A DNA stretch of 38,184 nucleotides from Halomonadaceae bacterium (GTDB lineage: Bacteria; Pseudomonadota; Gammaproteobacteria; Pseudomonadales; Oleiphilaceae), in the NCBI GenBank assembly GCA_007692645.1, contig REBR01000170.1, positions 1-38,184 of the forward strand, in the 5' to 3' direction. The translations under genes and the position numbers were made by a program. Of the stretch, positions 2,647-20,377 are shown piece after piece (the first letter of the stretch is position 1; every line of letters begins with the position of its first letter). The notes beneath the pieces were generated by a model that did not search any database, was not told the origin of the DNA, and was given only the letters and a program-made list of their open reading frames with translations.

Positions 2647-2723
<77 letters not shown>

Positions 2724-13444: not shown

Positions 13445-13936
13445 TCAGAGCTGGGAAAGCACGGTAAGGCCGAAGTCCGGGCAGCGTTGCCGTAAATCCG
13501 CCAGGGCTGTACCGTCTGGCAGGGTTAGTGAGGGGTCCAGATCCAGCAGGGGCTGTAGCACAAAATCCCGCTGTGACAGCTGCGGGTGGGGCACCTGCAG
13601 GCGGGGCAGGTCAATGACTTGCCGGTCAAGCAGGATCAGGTCCAGATCAAGGGTGCGGGGGCCCCAGTGGCGCAGCCGTTGCCGGCCCTGGACCTGCTCA
13701 ATATGCTGCAACTGGTCCAGCAGATCCAGTGGCTCAAGCCCGGTGTCCAGGGCTGCGGCCATATTCAGAAAATCCGGTTGGTCCTGGGGGCCCTGGGGGC
13801 GGGAGCGGTACACCGGGGAGGCAGCAATCAACTGGCTCTGGGGCAGTTGCGCCAGAGCCCTGAGGGCATCCTGCAGTTGTAGCAGGGGGTCCCCTTGGTT
13901 GCTGCCCAGGCCGATGTAGGCCCGCACCGGGTTCAT
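13445..13936 (-). CDS. folK: 6-hydroxymethyl-7,8-dihydropterin pyrophosphokinase (HPPK), second copy
   Basis: Catalyses pyrophosphate transfer from ATP to 6-hydroxymethyl-dihydropterin, the substrate for FolP. 163 residues, near the 159 of E. coli. The canonical fingerprint is present: AYIGLGSNQGDP, SPVYRSRPQGPQDQPDFLN and HWGPRTLDLDLIL with Mg ligands D97 and D99. Its ATG overlaps the pcnB stop (ATGA), as in the E. coli and Pseudomonas pcnB-folK pairs. This is likely the main HPPK; a diverged copy sits beside folB at 9459-9971. Confidence 0.97.
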   Translation of the reverse strand: MNPVRAYIGLGSNQGDPLLQLQDALRALAQLPQSQLIAASPVYRSRPQGPQDQPDFLNMAAALDTGLEPLDLLDQLQHIEQVQGRQRLRHWGPRTLDLDLILLDRQVIDLPRLQVPHPQLSQRDFVLQPLLDLDPSLTLPDGTALADLRQRCPDFGLTVLSQL

Positions 13937-15297
13937 GTGGTGCGCGGGCTGCGACGGCGGCGTTTACGGGGCTTGCTGGCCGGGGCCATAGACTTGATCA
14001 GCTGGCGGCGCTGTTCTTCGTCGGCGTCCTGGTAACGGGTCCACCAGTCCCCCAGATTGTCGCAGTCTTCCCCGGCATTTTCCCGCACCAGCAGGAAGTC
14101 ATAGGCGGCCCGGAAGCGGGGGTGTTCCAGTAACAGGTCGGCGCGGTTGCCCTGGCGCTTGGGCAGGCGCACCTGCAGTTCCCAGAGTTCCTTCATGGGC
14201 ACGGCAAAGCGTTTCGGGATGGCAATGGACTGACTCTGGCGGGCCTGCACTTCACCAGCGGCCAGGTGCAGTGCCTGGTAGTTGGGCTCCCCCCGGTCCA
14301 GGTGGCGGCGCCAGTTAACCCGCAGGGCTGGCCACAGCAGTGCGGCGAACAGGAAATAGGGGGTAATGGGTTTGTTTTCCCGTACCCGGCGGTCGGTGTT
14401 GGCCAGGGCCTGGCGAATCACTTCGTCAGACTCGCCTTCTTCAAGGGCGCTGTCGGTATCCGGGAACAGGGGGGCAAACAGGTCGTATTCCTGCAGCAGC
14501 TGGTAGGTGGCTTCACCCTGGCCGGCGGTAAACAGTTTGAGGATTTCCTCAAACAGCCGGGCGGGGGGGATATCTTTCAGCAGGTGGGCCTGCTCATGGA
14601 TGGGGGCGGCGGTGTCTGGAGCAATCTCAAAGTCCAGTTTTACCGCAAAACGAATGGCCCGCAGCATGCGTACCGGGTCTTCCCGGTAACGGGTGACCGG
14701 GTCGCCGATGAGGCGCAGTTGCCGGTCTTTCAGGTCGGCCACACCCTGGGCGTAATCATGCACGGTAAAGTCGCGGATGTCGTAATACAGCGCGTTGACG
14801 GTGAAGTCCCGGCGCAGAGCGTCTTCTTCCTGGTTGCCATAGACGTTATCCCGCAGCAGCCGGCCCTGATCGTTCACGCTGTGGCTCTGTTTCTGCTTGG
14901 CGTCTTCCGGGTTGCCCCTGAAAGTGGTGACCTCAATCATCTCCCGGCCGAACAACACGTGCACCAGGCGAAAACGACGACCGATCAGGCGTGAGTTACG
15001 AAACAGCTCATGCACCTCTTCCGGTGTCGCATTGGTGGCAATGTCATAGTCTTTGGGTGACAGGCCCAGCAGCAGGTCACGCACGCCGCCACCCACCAGA
15101 TAGGCATCAAAGCCGGCTTTGTTTAAGCGGTGCAAAACCTTTTTGGCCGGCTCGCTGATACCCTGGCGAGAGATACTGTGATGGTCCCTGGGGATCACCT
15201 GGTAACGGGTAGTCTCGGGGGTGTCTTGGGCGCCGCGTACCATCTGGATGACCTGTTGCAGCAGGGCAGAGAGCCCGTGTATGAACTTCGCTAACAT
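13933..15297 (-). CDS. pcnB: Poly(A) polymerase I
   Basis: Adds poly(A) tails to RNA 3' ends, marking them for decay by the degradosome; also influences plasmid copy number through antisense RNAs. 454 residues (E. coli 465). The class II nucleotidyltransferase core is visible: AYLVGGGVRDLLLG followed by KDYDIAT with the catalytic DxD, then RRFRLVHVLFG and the RRDFTVNALYYD signature. The C-terminus is basic (KPRKRRRRSPRTT), as in other poly(A) polymerases, and separates it from CCA-adding enzymes. The ATG at 15297 has no strong ribosome site; E. coli pcnB is also poorly initiated. First gene of pcnB-folK-panB-panC-pgi. Confidence 0.95.
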   Translation of the reverse strand: MLAKFIHGLSALLQQVIQMVRGAQDTPETTRYQVIPRDHHSISRQGISEPAKKVLHRLNKAGFDAYLVGGGVRDLLLGLSPKDYDIATNATPEEVHELFRNSRLIGRRFRLVHVLFGREMIEVTTFRGNPEDAKQKQSHSVNDQGRLLRDNVYGNQEEDALRRDFTVNALYYDIRDFTVHDYAQGVADLKDRQLRLIGDPVTRYREDPVRMLRAIRFAVKLDFEIAPDTAAPIHEQAHLLKDIPPARLFEEILKLFTAGQGEATYQLLQEYDLFAPLFPDTDSALEEGESDEVIRQALANTDRRVRENKPITPYFLFAALLWPALRVNWRRHLDRGEPNYQALHLAAGEVQARQSQSIAIPKRFAVPMKELWELQVRLPKRQGNRADLLLEHPRFRAAYDFLLVRENAGEDCDNLGDWWTRYQDADEEQRRQLIKSMAPASKPRKRRRRSPRTT

Positions 15298-15410: not shown

Positions 15411-15451
15411 GGAAATGAAAACGGGGCAGACCGTCAGACGATCTGCCCCGT
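15411..15451 (-). terminator. Intrinsic terminator of the CrcZ-like RNA
   Basis: On the minus strand ACGGGGCAGA pairs with TCTGCCCCGT over ten perfect pairs (15442-15451 with 15421-15430), with an inner CGTC/GACG stem in the loop. It is followed by TTTCATTTCC, a U-rich tail. Orientation fits a transcript coming from the cbrB side and stopping before pcnB. Confidence 0.8.
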
Positions 15452-15818
15452 AAAATCACGAGACGCTTTATTGTTTTTGGTGGTTGCTGTCTTGTTCTTA
15501 TTGGCTTAGCCCTCCTCAGGGCGACCCCCTTGCGGGAGATTTGGCGGCCGGAGCGCTTTGAAGACCGGGAGCGGTAGAACGTTGAGCGACTGCTTCATGG
15601 TGTATCTAAGCTGCCTTAGCGGCAGTTCTTGGAAAGATAAACCACAGTTACTCGTTTGGATCCGCTAAAAAGCCCTGTTCTCAAAACACTCAGTTCGCCG
15701 GCATCCTGTTATTGTTTTTATGGCTGGATGCTTAATGCAGCTTATTGTTGTTATTTTAGTACTGCTGACGTTGCTGCCGTTATTGTTTTTATCTGGCAGA
15801 CAATCTTCTTCTTGTTAC
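15411..15818 (-). ncRNA. crcZ: CrcZ-like regulatory RNA (Hfq/Crc-sequestering)
   Basis: An RNA of about 400 nt, between cbrB and pcnB as in Pseudomonas (CrcZ of P. aeruginosa is about 407 nt). It starts about 12 bases after a -24/-12 promoter and ends at an intrinsic terminator. The minus strand carries at least six A-rich motifs of the AAN-repeat type bound by Hfq/Crc: AACAAGAAGAAG (15805-15816), ATAAAAACAATAA (15780-15792, repeated exactly at 15709-15721), CTAAAATAACAACAATAA (15742-15759), CCAATAAGAACAAG (15491-15504) and CCAAAAACAATAA (15468-15480). They lie in single-stranded-looking stretches between small hairpins (15509-15522, 15611-15625). In Pseudomonas this RNA titrates Hfq/Crc off catabolic mRNAs when preferred carbon runs out. 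The homology call rests on synteny, motifs and promoter, not on an alignment. Confidence 0.85.
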
Positions 15819-15828
15819 TGCTTAAGAT

Positions 15829-15844
15829 TGCAGAAGCCGTGCCA
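15829..15844 (-). promoter_or_regulatory. Sigma-54 (-24/-12) promoter of the CrcZ-like RNA
   Basis: The minus strand reads TGGCACGGCTTCTGCA, with GG and GC separated by exactly ten bases and the full TGGCACG upper element. Start is predicted near 15818. The neighbouring cbrB encodes a sigma-54 activator, which fits. Confidence 0.85.
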
Positions 15845-15871: not shown

Positions 15872-15981
15872 GGTTACGGAAATGAAATCTGTGACTGGTC
15901 CTTGGGGGCCACTGAGAACTGTTACCTAAACTGGTCAGATTGGGCCTCTTTGTTCCTTGGGGTAACACTAGGTAACGTTAC
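15872..15981. promoter_or_regulatory. Probable CbrB upstream activating sequences
   Basis: GTTAC/GTAAC elements cluster 30-140 bases upstream of the sigma-54 promoter: GTTAC at 15873-15877, TGTTAC at 15920-15925, GGTAAC at 15961-15966 and again at 15971-15976 (ten bases apart, one helical turn), the latter inside the perfect palindrome GTAACGTTAC (15972-15981). Half-sites of this kind are, as I recall, described for CbrB in Pseudomonas; the exact spacing reported there is not reproduced here. Confidence 0.6.
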
Positions 15982-16001: not shown

Positions 16002-17405
16002 TCAGCTTTGGCTGATTTTCTTTCTCGGAATGCCCAGGCGCTGTCGCCGCTCCCACAGTGACTTGCGGCTGATGCCGAGCTTCTGGGCAAGTTCGGTTTC
16101 ACTCATACGGTCTTGATTTTCTAACACAAAGTGCTGGAAATAATCTTCCAGGGACAAGTCGTTAGGGAGTTCTTCCTCGCTTTCAGCAACCTCGGGTTCA
16201 TCACTGTTTATCAGTCCTGCCGGAATATGGACGCCGTCTTCCTGGTCAAGATCCAGTAATTCCGGGGTAATCAGGTCGCCATCGCACATGATCACGGCAC
16301 GCTCTATGGCGTTCTCCAGCTCCCGCACATTGCCCGGCCAGCGATAGGTCTCGATCAGACGCATGGCCTCTGGTGACAGAGAGAAGTCGCTCTTGCCCAG
16401 TTTGTTCCCCATGGTATGCAAAAAGCGTTTAGCCAGTTCCAGAATATCTTCACTGCGGTCACGCAGGGGAGGTAATCGCACCTGCATAACATTGAGCCGG
16501 TAATACAGATCTTCCCGGAACTCACCGGTGCGGGTCATGGCGCGCAGGTTACGGTGGGTCGCTGCCACCATGCGCACATCCACTTTGCGGCTTTGGGTGG
16601 AGCCGACCCGGCGAATCTCCCCTTCCTGTAATACCCGTAGCAGTCGCGCCTGGGCTTCCGGTGGCAACTCGCCGATTTCATCCAGAAACAGGGTGCCGCC
16701 GTCTGCCGCTTCTATCAGACCGGTACGGGCAGAGGCGGCGCCGGTAAAGGCGCCTTTTTCATGGCCAAACAGTTCCGATTCAATCAGGGTTTCCGGAATG
16801 GCGGCACAGTTGACGGAAATAATCGGATAGCTGGCCCTGGCATTAAGCAGGTGCAGGGCCTGAGCTGCCAGTTCCTTACCGGTGCCGGATTCTCCCATGA
16901 TCAGGACCGTGGTGTCCGTAGGGGCCACTTTACGGATCAGGCGGAAGACTTTCTGCATCGCTTCACACTGACCCACCATAATGCGGCTGGGGTCGCCTTC
17001 GGCAATGCCATCTTGTTCTTCACCAGCGCCGGTGTCCGCGCTCTGGGCGGGCATGGGGTGGCGGGCCAGGATCTGGCGGATGGTGGCCAGCATTTCATCG
17101 TGGTCAAAGGGTTTGGCAATATAGTCCACGGCCCCCAGTTTCATGGAGTCCACCGCGGAGCGCAGACTGGCGTAACTGGTCATGATCAATACCGGCACTG
17201 AACCGGCACGGTGAATCAGCTCCGTGCCAGGGGCGCCAGGCAGACGTAAATCGGTGATCACCAGGTCAAACTCGTTGAGGTCAAACCGGTCGCAGGCGTC
17301 ACCTACGGATTCCCCGGTGTCTACCTGGTATTGATTGTGTTCAAGCAGCTTTTTCAGGGCTGTGCGAATCACGACTTCGTCTTCCACCACAAGAATACGA
17401 CTCAT
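16002..17405 (-). CDS. cbrB: Sigma-54-dependent response regulator CbrB (NtrC family)
   Basis: Transcription activator of carbon/nitrogen balance, phosphorylated by CbrA. 467 residues: a receiver domain with the phospho-acceptor D52 (VITDLRLPG); a central AAA+ domain with Walker A GESGTGKE, the sigma-54 contact loop GAFTGA and LFLDEIGELP; and a C-terminal Fis-type helix-turn-helix (ETELAQKLGISRKSLWERR). The start overlaps the cbrA stop by four bases (ATGA). Identification as CbrB rather than another NtrC-type regulator rests on the partner kinase with a transporter domain, the CbrX gene, and the CrcZ-like RNA and pcnB downstream. Its most likely direct target is the promoter at 15829-15844. 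Confidence 0.93.
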   Translation of the reverse strand: MSRILVVEDEVVIRTALKKLLEHNQYQVDTGESVGDACDRFDLNEFDLVITDLRLPGAPGTELIHRAGSVPVLIMTSYASLRSAVDSMKLGAVDYIAKPFDHDEMLATIRQILARHPMPAQSADTGAGEEQDGIAEGDPSRIMVGQCEAMQKVFRLIRKVAPTDTTVLIMGESGTGKELAAQALHLLNARASYPIISVNCAAIPETLIESELFGHEKGAFTGAASARTGLIEAADGGTLFLDEIGELPPEAQARLLRVLQEGEIRRVGSTQSRKVDVRMVAATHRNLRAMTRTGEFREDLYYRLNVMQVRLPPLRDRSEDILELAKRFLHTMGNKLGKSDFSLSPEAMRLIETYRWPGNVRELENAIERAVIMCDGDLITPELLDLDQEDGVHIPAGLINSDEPEVAESEEELPNDLSLEDYFQHFVLENQDRMSETELAQKLGISRKSLWERRQRLGIPRKKISQS

Positions 17406-20377
17406 ACCGACTGATCCTGATTGGCTGGCTGTGGTCCCTGTAGCGGGTCTGTTGGTGCTGCTGGCAGCTTCAGGCGAATACAGGTGCCCCGCTGCAGGGT
17501 TTTATCCGTGGGGCTGTCCACTTGCACATTGCCATAGTGTTCTTCAATGATGCTGTAAACCAGGGACAGGCCCAGGCCGGTGCCCTGATCCGGGCCTTTG
17601 GTTGTGTAAAACGGCTCAAAGATATGATCCTGCTGATCGGCAGGAATACCATGGCCCTGATCACAGACCGCAATAATAGCTGAGTGGCCATCACGGTGGC
17701 CACTGATGTCGATGTGGCTGCCATCCGGTGAGGCGTCACGGGCGTTGGCCAGCAGGTTAATAAACACCTGTACCAGCCGTTGTTCATCCCCCAGTACCCA
17801 GAGGTCTTGCGGGCACTGGTTGAGGTAGCGGATTTCCCGCTCACGGTCACCCAGTGATAGCAGATTAATGGCCTCCTGCACACAGCGAAACACCGGTACC
17901 GGTTCATGGGGGTTGTGGGTGCTGTGGTTGCCGGCCCGGGCGAAGTTCATCAGTGATTGCTGAATGCTGGAAATGCGTTTTGTCTGAATCAGTATCTGTT
18001 CGGCGGTTTCCAGCACGTTAACGTCATCGGTTTCCAGTTTCAGATTCTGGGCCAGGCAGGCTATGCCGGTGACCGGGTTACCCACTTCATGGGCCACGCC
18101 GGCGGCGAGCCGGCCAACAGAGGCCAGACGTTCACTGTGAATCAGTTCGTCTTCCAGTAGCCGGGCTTCGGTTTGGTCTTCCACCAGAATCACCGTGCCC
18201 CCCTCCGGGTGTTCCGGACCGCCGATGGCGGACTGGTGCAGGTTAAACCAATGGGGGAAACCATCCACCTCCACCCGGTGTTTCGGCAGGTGGTCAGTGT
18301 CGCTGGCATTGAACTCCCACAGCAGGGGGCCCCAGGGGGCAGGCAGGCTGTGGAGGTTGGCGCCGATAATCTCCCGGGCTTCAATGCCGGTGAGGGTTTC
18401 CATGGCCTGGTTCCACATCAGTAGTTCGTTGTCATTGCCAACGGAGCAGGCGGCTACCGGCAGGTCCTGGAGGATCTGCCGGTAATGCCGCCGCAGGCTG
18501 TCCAATTCCGCTGCCAGGCCAGTCAGCCGTGAGCGGTAGTCTTCCAGGGCGGTTTCGACAAAATGAATATCATGCCCGGGGCGGGCTCCTCCCAGGGGTT
18601 TAAAGCCCAGGTTGCGGCGAATAATATCGCTGGCCATGGCCGGGCCCAGCAGGCCAGACAGGTTGGCCTCCAGCTGATCACGCAGCCGGCGCAGTGGGTA
18701 AGGGCGGTATTCCACCGGCGGCAGATCCAACTGGACCAGGGCCTGGTTAACTTCCCGCTGAGCCACAATATCCCCTAAAGGCACGGCCAGCTGGGTCTTG
18801 AAATCTTCTGATGAGCTGGCCAGCAATTCCCGCCGGTGTGGCCGGGACAGGGCGCCCATGGAGCAGGACTGTGCAGCACTCACCTCATCAGCGCTGGTGG
18901 AGGTGAGCAGGGTAACCGCCGCAAACACCATCACGTTCAGGGTCAGCGAAAAGAAAGTATAAATATGCCAGTTATCCGGATCCTGGGGCGGTGGTACGGT
19001 CATGCCCATCAGGCTCATCAGGTCAATGGCAAAGGTCATGGGTAGCACCATGGTCAGTAACCACAGGCCAATACCGGTTAGCAGGCCGGCGATCACCCCT
19101 TTACTGTTGCCCTCTGGCCAATAAATAACCCCCAGAACCCCCGGTAACAGCTGCAGCACCCCTGCCAGGGCGACAAAACCCAACACCGATAGTGCCAGGC
19201 CCTGGCCAATAAAATAATGGAAGGCCAGAGCCGCCAGAATGATGGCGGCAATCAGCAGCCGTTTGGTCCACTGCAGCCAGGTGTAAATGTTGTGTTTTTC
19301 CCGGGGCGGGTAAAGGGGCAGCACCAGGTGGTTAAGCAGCATGCCCGACAATGCCAGGGTCAGTACAATCATCAGGGCGCTGGCAGCAGACATTCCGGCC
19401 AGATAAGCCAGCAGGGTCATGGTGGGGGATTCCAGCACCAGACCCAGGCCAACGGCAAAATAATCCGGGGTCAGGGGGATCTCAAGGTAAATGCCCGCCC
19501 ACAGAATGACCGGCACCGGCAAGGCGAGCAGCAGCAGATAAAGGGGCAGGCCCCAGCTGGCCCGGGCCAGGGCGGTGGGGCTGGGGTTTTCGGTAAAGGT
19601 CATGTGAAACATGTGTGGCATAACCAATACCGCGGCAAAGGAAACCAGCAGCAGGGCGCGCCAGTTGCCATCCCCCATGTGCCGTTCAAGGCCACTGATA
19701 TGGGGTTCCTGTGCTTGCAGCCAGGCGTCCAGACCACCCAGGCCATTAAACACGGTAAACAGCAGCATGGCGCCCAGGGCCAGCATGGCAACCAGTTTCA
19801 CCAGGGCTTCGAAGGCGATAGCCATGACCAGGCCCTCATGGCTTTCGACGCCATGGTGATGGCGAGCCCCGAACAGTACGGAAAAAATCATCACCATGGC
19901 GCTGAAGACCAGGGCCAGATGAACAATATTGGCTTCCGGAGCCAGAATGGACAGGGCGGTGGAGACTGCCTGAATCTGCAGCCCCAGTAACGACATGATG
20001 GCTGCAGTGGAGCACAGGGTCACCAGGGTACCGGCCCACTGGCTGCGGTAACGGAAAGTGAACAGGTCTGCCAGTGAGGTAAGCTGGTAGGAGCGGGCAA
20101 TACGCAATATGGGGTGGAGCAGAACCGGAGCCAGCAAAAAGGCACCACAGATGCCCAGATAATAGGCCAGATAACCATAGCCAAAGTCGTTGGCCATGGA
20201 CACGGCACCAAACACCGCCCATGCGCCGGCATAGACACCGAGGCTTAAGATATAAATCAGCGGGTGGCGGGCCCAGTGACGGGGGATCAGGCCCCGCTCG
20301 GTAGCCTGGGCAATGGCAAACAATAACGACAGGTAAGCGGCGCTCAATAGCAGCAGCTGGGTCAGGCTAAAATTCAT
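17402..20377 (-). CDS. cbrA: Sensor histidine kinase CbrA with sodium/solute symporter domain
   Basis: Membrane histidine kinase of 991 residues that pairs with CbrB. The first ~500 residues are a multi-spanning SSS-family (SLC5-like) transporter domain, beginning MNFSLTQLLLLSAAYLSLLF and with more than ten hydrophobic segments; family members have been linked to histidine uptake. A linker and PAS domain follow (LLMWNQAMETLTGIEARE, about 650). The kinase core has the H-box GVAHEVGNP with H763, N-box LLANARDAS, G1 DQGHGIPA, F-box FEPFYTTK and G2 GTGLGLSL. The signal it senses is not settled in the family. The ATG lies inside the 3' end of cbrX (11-base overlap), implying translational coupling; its stop overlaps cbrB. 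Confidence 0.95.
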   Translation of the reverse strand: MNFSLTQLLLLSAAYLSLLFAIAQATERGLIPRHWARHPLIYILSLGVYAGAWAVFGAVSMANDFGYGYLAYYLGICGAFLLAPVLLHPILRIARSYQLTSLADLFTFRYRSQWAGTLVTLCSTAAIMSLLGLQIQAVSTALSILAPEANIVHLALVFSAMVMIFSVLFGARHHHGVESHEGLVMAIAFEALVKLVAMLALGAMLLFTVFNGLGGLDAWLQAQEPHISGLERHMGDGNWRALLLVSFAAVLVMPHMFHMTFTENPSPTALARASWGLPLYLLLLALPVPVILWAGIYLEIPLTPDYFAVGLGLVLESPTMTLLAYLAGMSAASALMIVLTLALSGMLLNHLVLPLYPPREKHNIYTWLQWTKRLLIAAIILAALAFHYFIGQGLALSVLGFVALAGVLQLLPGVLGVIYWPEGNSKGVIAGLLTGIGLWLLTMVLPMTFAIDLMSLMGMTVPPPQDPDNWHIYTFFSLTLNVMVFAAVTLLTSTSADEVSAAQSCSMGALSRPHRRELLASSSEDFKTQLAVPLGDIVAQREVNQALVQLDLPPVEYRPYPLRRLRDQLEANLSGLLGPAMASDIIRRNLGFKPLGGARPGHDIHFVETALEDYRSRLTGLAAELDSLRRHYRQILQDLPVAACSVGNDNELLMWNQAMETLTGIEAREIIGANLHSLPAPWGPLLWEFNASDTDHLPKHRVEVDGFPHWFNLHQSAIGGPEHPEGGTVILVEDQTEARLLEDELIHSERLASVGRLAAGVAHEVGNPVTGIACLAQNLKLETDDVNVLETAEQILIQTKRISSIQQSLMNFARAGNHSTHNPHEPVPVFRCVQEAINLLSLGDREREIRYLNQCPQDLWVLGDEQRLVQVFINLLANARDASPDGSHIDISGHRDGHSAIIAVCDQGHGIPADQQDHIFEPFYTTKGPDQGTGLGLSLVYSIIEEHYGNVQVDSPTDKTLQRGTCIRLKLPAAPTDPLQGPQPANQDQSV

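Follow-up and report, generated by a model that had tools for sequence, protein, structure and literature searches.

The region between cbrB and pcnB in the window (the whole 38,184-nt stretch of DNA that was analyzed) very probably encodes a CrcZ-type RNA (positions 15818 to 15415, minus strand), which would be activated by CbrB and would lift catabolite repression by titrating Hfq/Crc. On the basis of position, anatomy, and profile match, this RNA is a predicted orthologue of CrcZ, with a score that does not reach the formal Rfam cutoff. Several lines of evidence favor the CrcZ-type identity put forward in a preliminary description of this DNA: synteny, the promoter, CbrB sites, the number of A-rich motifs, length, a covarying structure, and a full-length match to the Rfam model. 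The DNA elements, their conservation, the covarying structure, and the presence of cbrA, cbrB, hfq, crc, and rpoN were observed directly.

The genes follow the order cbrA, cbrB, RNA region, pcnB, all on the minus strand, so that, read along that strand, the RNA region follows cbrB and precedes pcnB. cbrA (17402 to 20377) encodes a sensor kinase of 991 amino acids, with a long N-terminal region followed by PAS, HisKA, and HATPase domains (Pfam PAS, HisKA, and HATPase_c). The Pfam SSF domain model gave no match in the cbrA product, and we infer the SLC5 part of CbrA from its length and position. cbrB (16002 to 17405) encodes an NtrC-family response regulator of 467 amino acids with a sigma-54 activation domain (Pfam Response_reg and Sigma54_activat, and synteny), which shares 59 to 64% identity with orthologues in named genomes (Pseudomonas and other genera) and at the f20 loci whose CrcZ matches exceed the Rfam cutoff. 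pcnB (13933 to 15297) encodes a poly(A) polymerase of 454 amino acids (NCBIfam TIGR01942, 565 bits versus a cutoff of 306). The earlier placement of the RNA region between cbrB and pcnB is therefore borne out by the orthology of CbrB, by cbrA upstream, and by the pcnB match downstream.

A putative sigma-54 promoter, TGGCACGGCTTCTGCA (15829 to 15844, minus strand), has exact GG-N10-GC spacing and is conserved across the window's own family. It scores 20.4 of a maximum of 21.4, a value equaled by none of 2,000 dinucleotide shuffles, and its predicted transcription start is at 15818 on the minus strand; the spacing, score, and shuffles uphold both the promoter and the start originally proposed. 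In Pseudomonas putida F1, CbrB recognizes three subsites, including TGTTAC (forward) and GTAACA (reverse) (PMC6296734). Identical forward (15962 to 15967) and reverse (15920 to 15925) subsites are located on the minus strand of the window, 123 and 81 nt upstream of the promoter element, respectively, as in relatives, and a degenerate forward subsite, CGTTAC (15972 to 15977, minus strand), fits the position of the tandem TGTTAC found at approximately −134 from the promoter in relatives. No counterpart of the middle of the three published subsites was recognizable in the window. Across loci of the order, the distances from the promoter element group around −124 and −134 for TGTTAC sites and around −80 and −103 for GTAACA sites. 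The window thus carries a sigma-54 promoter together with upstream TGTTAC and GTAACA subsites.

From promoter to terminator, the predicted transcript is ∼404 nt long (15415 to 15818, minus strand) and has six A-rich stretches, which may serve as Hfq distal-face motifs; the CrcZ of Pseudomonas aeruginosa is 407 nt long, has six A-rich stretches, and binds the distal face of Hfq (PMC4063720). The six stretches, all on the minus strand, comprise five AANAAYAA clusters and a weaker 5′ element, AACAAGAAGAA (15806 to 15816), which sits where relatives have their 5′ CACAACAACAAAAACAA, 2 to 8 nt past the predicted start. The second, fourth, and sixth stretches are all AAAAACAATAA: the second (15780 to 15790) lies in the loop of a predicted CTGCC/GGCAG hairpin (15799 to 15795 and 15778 to 15774), the fourth (15709 to 15719) lies in the loop of a GCATCC/GGATGC hairpin (15731 to 15726 and 15706 to 15701; helix 2, whose pairs show as many as 9 double changes each), and the sixth (15468 to 15478) is the best-conserved 3′ motif in the family alignment. 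The third, AATAACAACAATAA (15742 to 15755), lies in the loop of a covarying hairpin (helix 1), and the fifth is AAGAACAA (15492 to 15499). Ten AANAAYAA motifs were observed, versus a shuffle mean of 0.29, and they form five clusters in 403 nt, versus a shuffle mean of 0.27; neither count was attained in any of 5,000 shuffles, and the motif density is the highest of any 403-nt stretch on either strand of the window. A coding repeat is unlikely because, read directly, the A-rich motifs contain UAA codons. The RNA region ends at a predicted intrinsic terminator (15412 to 15451, minus strand) consisting of a 13-bp covarying stem (15451 to 15421), a 5-nt loop, and TTTTCATTT. At least six A-rich motifs on one strand, a U-tailed terminator, and a span of about 400 nt, as claimed in the preliminary description, are all confirmed; the exact repeat that it reported, ATAAAAACAATAAC (15792 to 15779 and 15721 to 15708, minus strand), is real and is 14 rather than 13 bases long.

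The predicted fold of the window RNA is stable (−134.9 kcal/mol; z score, −6.3), and an alignment of 21 sequences from the window's own family supports a conserved structure. Across the 40 pairs of this structure, 91.8% of cells remain paired, and 19 pairs are altered on both sides, while sliding the partners by 1 to 3 columns reduces pairing to 33 to 41%. Cells changed on both sides number 78, versus 23 in shuffles, and this value was matched in none of 500 shuffles; all five structure measures surpass 500 of 500 shuffles, a control that ignores the relatedness of the sequences. Helices 2, 4, and 6 show many pair types. A long-range helix (alignment columns 144 to 165 with 291 to 312) hardly varies and is the counterpart of the UUUGG/CAAA pairing in the Rfam consensus. 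Stems at columns 57 to 61/82 to 86 and 113 to 116/136 to 139 enclose loops with A-rich motifs, and the folded RNA is therefore predicted to display these putative Hfq sites in hairpin loops.

Since the region immediately precedes pcnB, with the same orientation, and read-through is possible, it could alternatively be a long untranslated 5′ leader whose A-rich Hfq sites regulate pcnB, with no separate RNA. Three observations make this very unlikely. First, the strong terminator with its covarying stem sits between the RNA region and pcnB. Second, family members differ in how far the predicted start lies from pcnB (373 to 607 nt), yet their RNA elements keep the same register. Third, the CrcZ of Pseudomonas, which occupies the equivalent position, is transcribed separately (the crcZ unit is separate from cbrAB; PMC8871633).

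The default Rfam scan of the window returned no CrcZ match and only a tRNA gene (2650 to 2723, minus strand). At a relaxed threshold, the search with the Rfam CrcZ model (RF01675) suggested in the preliminary description aligned the model over its full length (1 to 398) to positions 15792 to 15387 with 41.8 bits and an E value of 1.6e-9, yet below the curated gathering cutoff of 95 bits, which explains the silence of the default scan. The expectation that such RNAs diverge too fast for sequence search is therefore not upheld, as the profile finds this one. The relaxed search gave no match in 14 control genomes. A CRISPR-DR4 match (15626 to 15603) was weak (E value, 0.56) and was rejected as chance. 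Within the window's own family, a single match was obtained in each of 92 of the 101 genomes, at 28 to 62 bits and always below the cutoff. pcnB was located in five of the nine unmatched family genomes, and four of these five carry a sigma-54-like element (one of them weaker, at 17.5 of 21.4) followed by A-rich clusters; in the fifth, pcnB lies near a contig end. The missing matches therefore appear mostly to reflect limits of the model. In a class-wide search, only four short matches of ≤30 bits were found outside the order; they are too faint to be of use and do not mark a true boundary, since the model also misses most of the order itself. The f20 loci score 213 to 368 bits, above the cutoff, and are taken to be Pseudomonadaceae, by which the order would be Pseudomonadales in the broad sense. 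Second CrcZ copies were also observed: one (L032, on contig C122 of genome G243) is found apart from both cbrB and pcnB, which would be expected of CrcY/CrcX-type paralogues, and genomes G304 and G323 have second matches.

Of the 245 genomes of the order, 243 yielded a pcnB gene, and the regions upstream of it were compared in ∼60 genomes, with approximately 1 to 4 per family outside the window's own and some picked for a weak CrcZ match. In the resulting 78 loci, A-rich clusters average 4.5 on the sense strand versus 0.5 on the antisense strand and 0.52 in shuffled sequence, and the sense strand is the richer one in 76 loci. Intergenic DNA is often A-rich in general, and the region might on that ground be a chance spacer without function; this is refuted by conservation, and the shuffles, the strand bias, covariation, and positional conservation together leave it a negligible probability. 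A sigma-54 score of ≥18.9 was found in 64 of the 78 loci, versus 1.7% of shuffles, and in all 63 loci with a qualifying promoter and a downstream motif, the first A-rich motif lies 0 to 45 nt (median, 6) past the predicted start. Promoter and A-rich motifs are retained in 20 of 25 sampled families, including that of Gilvimarinus. The arrangement is absent from neighborhoods without cbrB (L181, L182, and L189) and from L200, where the gap between cbrB and pcnB is only 55 nt. Exceptions are three f8 loci (L049, L054, and L055) and some f6, f37, and f39 loci, which have the RNA with no cbrB detected in the stretch examined; the f8 loci carry a CrcZ-like RNA with a sigma-54 promoter upstream of pcnB.

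The preliminary description had named Crc and Hfq as partners to look for, with the absence of both as contrary evidence; both were found in the window's own genome, as was RpoN. Hfq is intact (83 amino acids; L060:1453-1704) and near-identical to that of P. aeruginosa over residues 1 to 68. Position 25 is Phe rather than Tyr, a probably conservative change at a residue whose Y25D substitution abolishes CrcZ binding in P. aeruginosa. Crc is split between two contig ends, with the N-terminal 177 amino acids on C100 (L064:1447-1977) and the C-terminal 117 on C224 (L066:1462-1815). The best solved-structure match of both fragments is P. aeruginosa Crc (4jg3), and their neighbors, named from reading the sequences, are a pyrE-like gene on C100 and an rph-like gene on C224. 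The crc ends of the two contigs of this draft assembly overlap with a few differences, which suggests mixed strains. XthA (L061) was considered as Crc and rejected, the true Crc being the split protein. The signal for Hfq/Crc targets in this genome is weak: AACAAYAA occurs shortly before ATG 58 times genome-wide and the reversed pattern 31 times, a 1.9-fold excess. Of 30 matches inspected, few were convincing as gene starts. An open frame of at least 501 amino acids (L239:1-1503, minus strand) with an apparent signal peptide and no Pfam match has an A-rich motif just before its start.

With the Crc fragment from the window's own genome as query, 179 of the order's 245 genomes had relatives at an E value of 1e-30. 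At an E value of 1e-6, none was detected in the f28 g70, f44, and f47 genomes tested, in which Crc may have diverged, and f17 g32 has only remote relatives (28 to 29% identity) in two of three genomes. The f28 (L210), f44 (L201 and L202), and f17 (L179 and L180) lineages keep a cbrB-linked A-rich RNA region; the two f44 loci gave no sigma-54 match. Retention of a motif-rich region in lineages without detectable Crc would fit an RNA that sequesters Hfq, possibly without Crc, for purposes other than carbon catabolite control. For the window RNA we regard this as unlikely, given that Crc is present in its own genome and in the nine further genomes of its family that the order-wide search included and that intact CbrB promoter sites tie the RNA to a carbon regulator. 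For the order as a whole, we consider it possible, with considerable doubt, that the CbrAB-CrcZ module is ancestral to the Pseudomonadales and able to act as an Hfq sponge without Crc.

For the CrcZ-type RNA of the window, we infer transcription, binding of Hfq/Crc, and a physiological effect as follows. (i) When the preferred carbon source is short, CbrA/CbrB would become active. (ii) CbrB, at the TGTTAC/GTAACA sites, would cause sigma-54 RNA polymerase to fire from 15844-15829, yielding an untranslated RNA of ∼404 nt. (iii) Each of the six A-rich stretches, several of them in hairpin loops, could be accommodated on the distal face of an Hfq hexamer. (iv) The RNA would titrate Hfq, together with Crc, away from ribosome-binding sites on catabolic mRNAs and relieve catabolite repression.

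CbrAB has been described as exclusive to the Pseudomonadaceae (Pseudomonas and Azotobacter), and CbrAB with CrcZ is stated to occur in these two genera only (PMC6296734 and PMC8871633). Our literature search, which covered open-access titles and abstracts, found no CrcZ outside the Pseudomonadaceae, no paper on CrcZ with Marinobacter, and no relevant paper for the other genera searched. The published range is contradicted by the order-wide sequence data, and the occurrence of the complete arrangement in 20 of the 25 families sampled suggests that carbon control of the Hfq/Crc type, exerted by a decoy RNA, probably has an old origin and a wide distribution among these bacteria. This kind of RNA is already known; its breadth is undescribed in the literature covered. 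Such RNAs are at present invisible to default Rfam annotation because the model cutoff admits little beyond Pseudomonas. Genomes that have Crc and genomes that lack it form a natural series, which offers a chance to ask what Crc adds.

The window RNA resembles the CrcZ of Pseudomonas (RF01675; paralogues CrcY and CrcX) in its cbrA-cbrB-RNA-pcnB neighborhood, predicted sigma-54 promoter, and forward and reverse CbrB subsites and in having ∼400 nt, six A-rich stretches, a terminator, and a sequence alignable over the full model. It differs in its score (41.8 bits, versus >300 for the best f20, Pseudomonas-type, members), in the sequence of its internal region and most stems, and in its host, which lies outside the Pseudomonadaceae. 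In RNAs of the RsmY/RsmZ type, the motifs are GGA and serve RsmA/CsrA, and the driver is GacA. The window RNA would share with them a design in which a two-component system drives an RNA whose repeated, hairpin-borne protein-binding motifs titrate a translational repressor; unlike RsmY and RsmZ, it has A-rich motifs predicted to bind Hfq and is predicted to be driven by CbrB.
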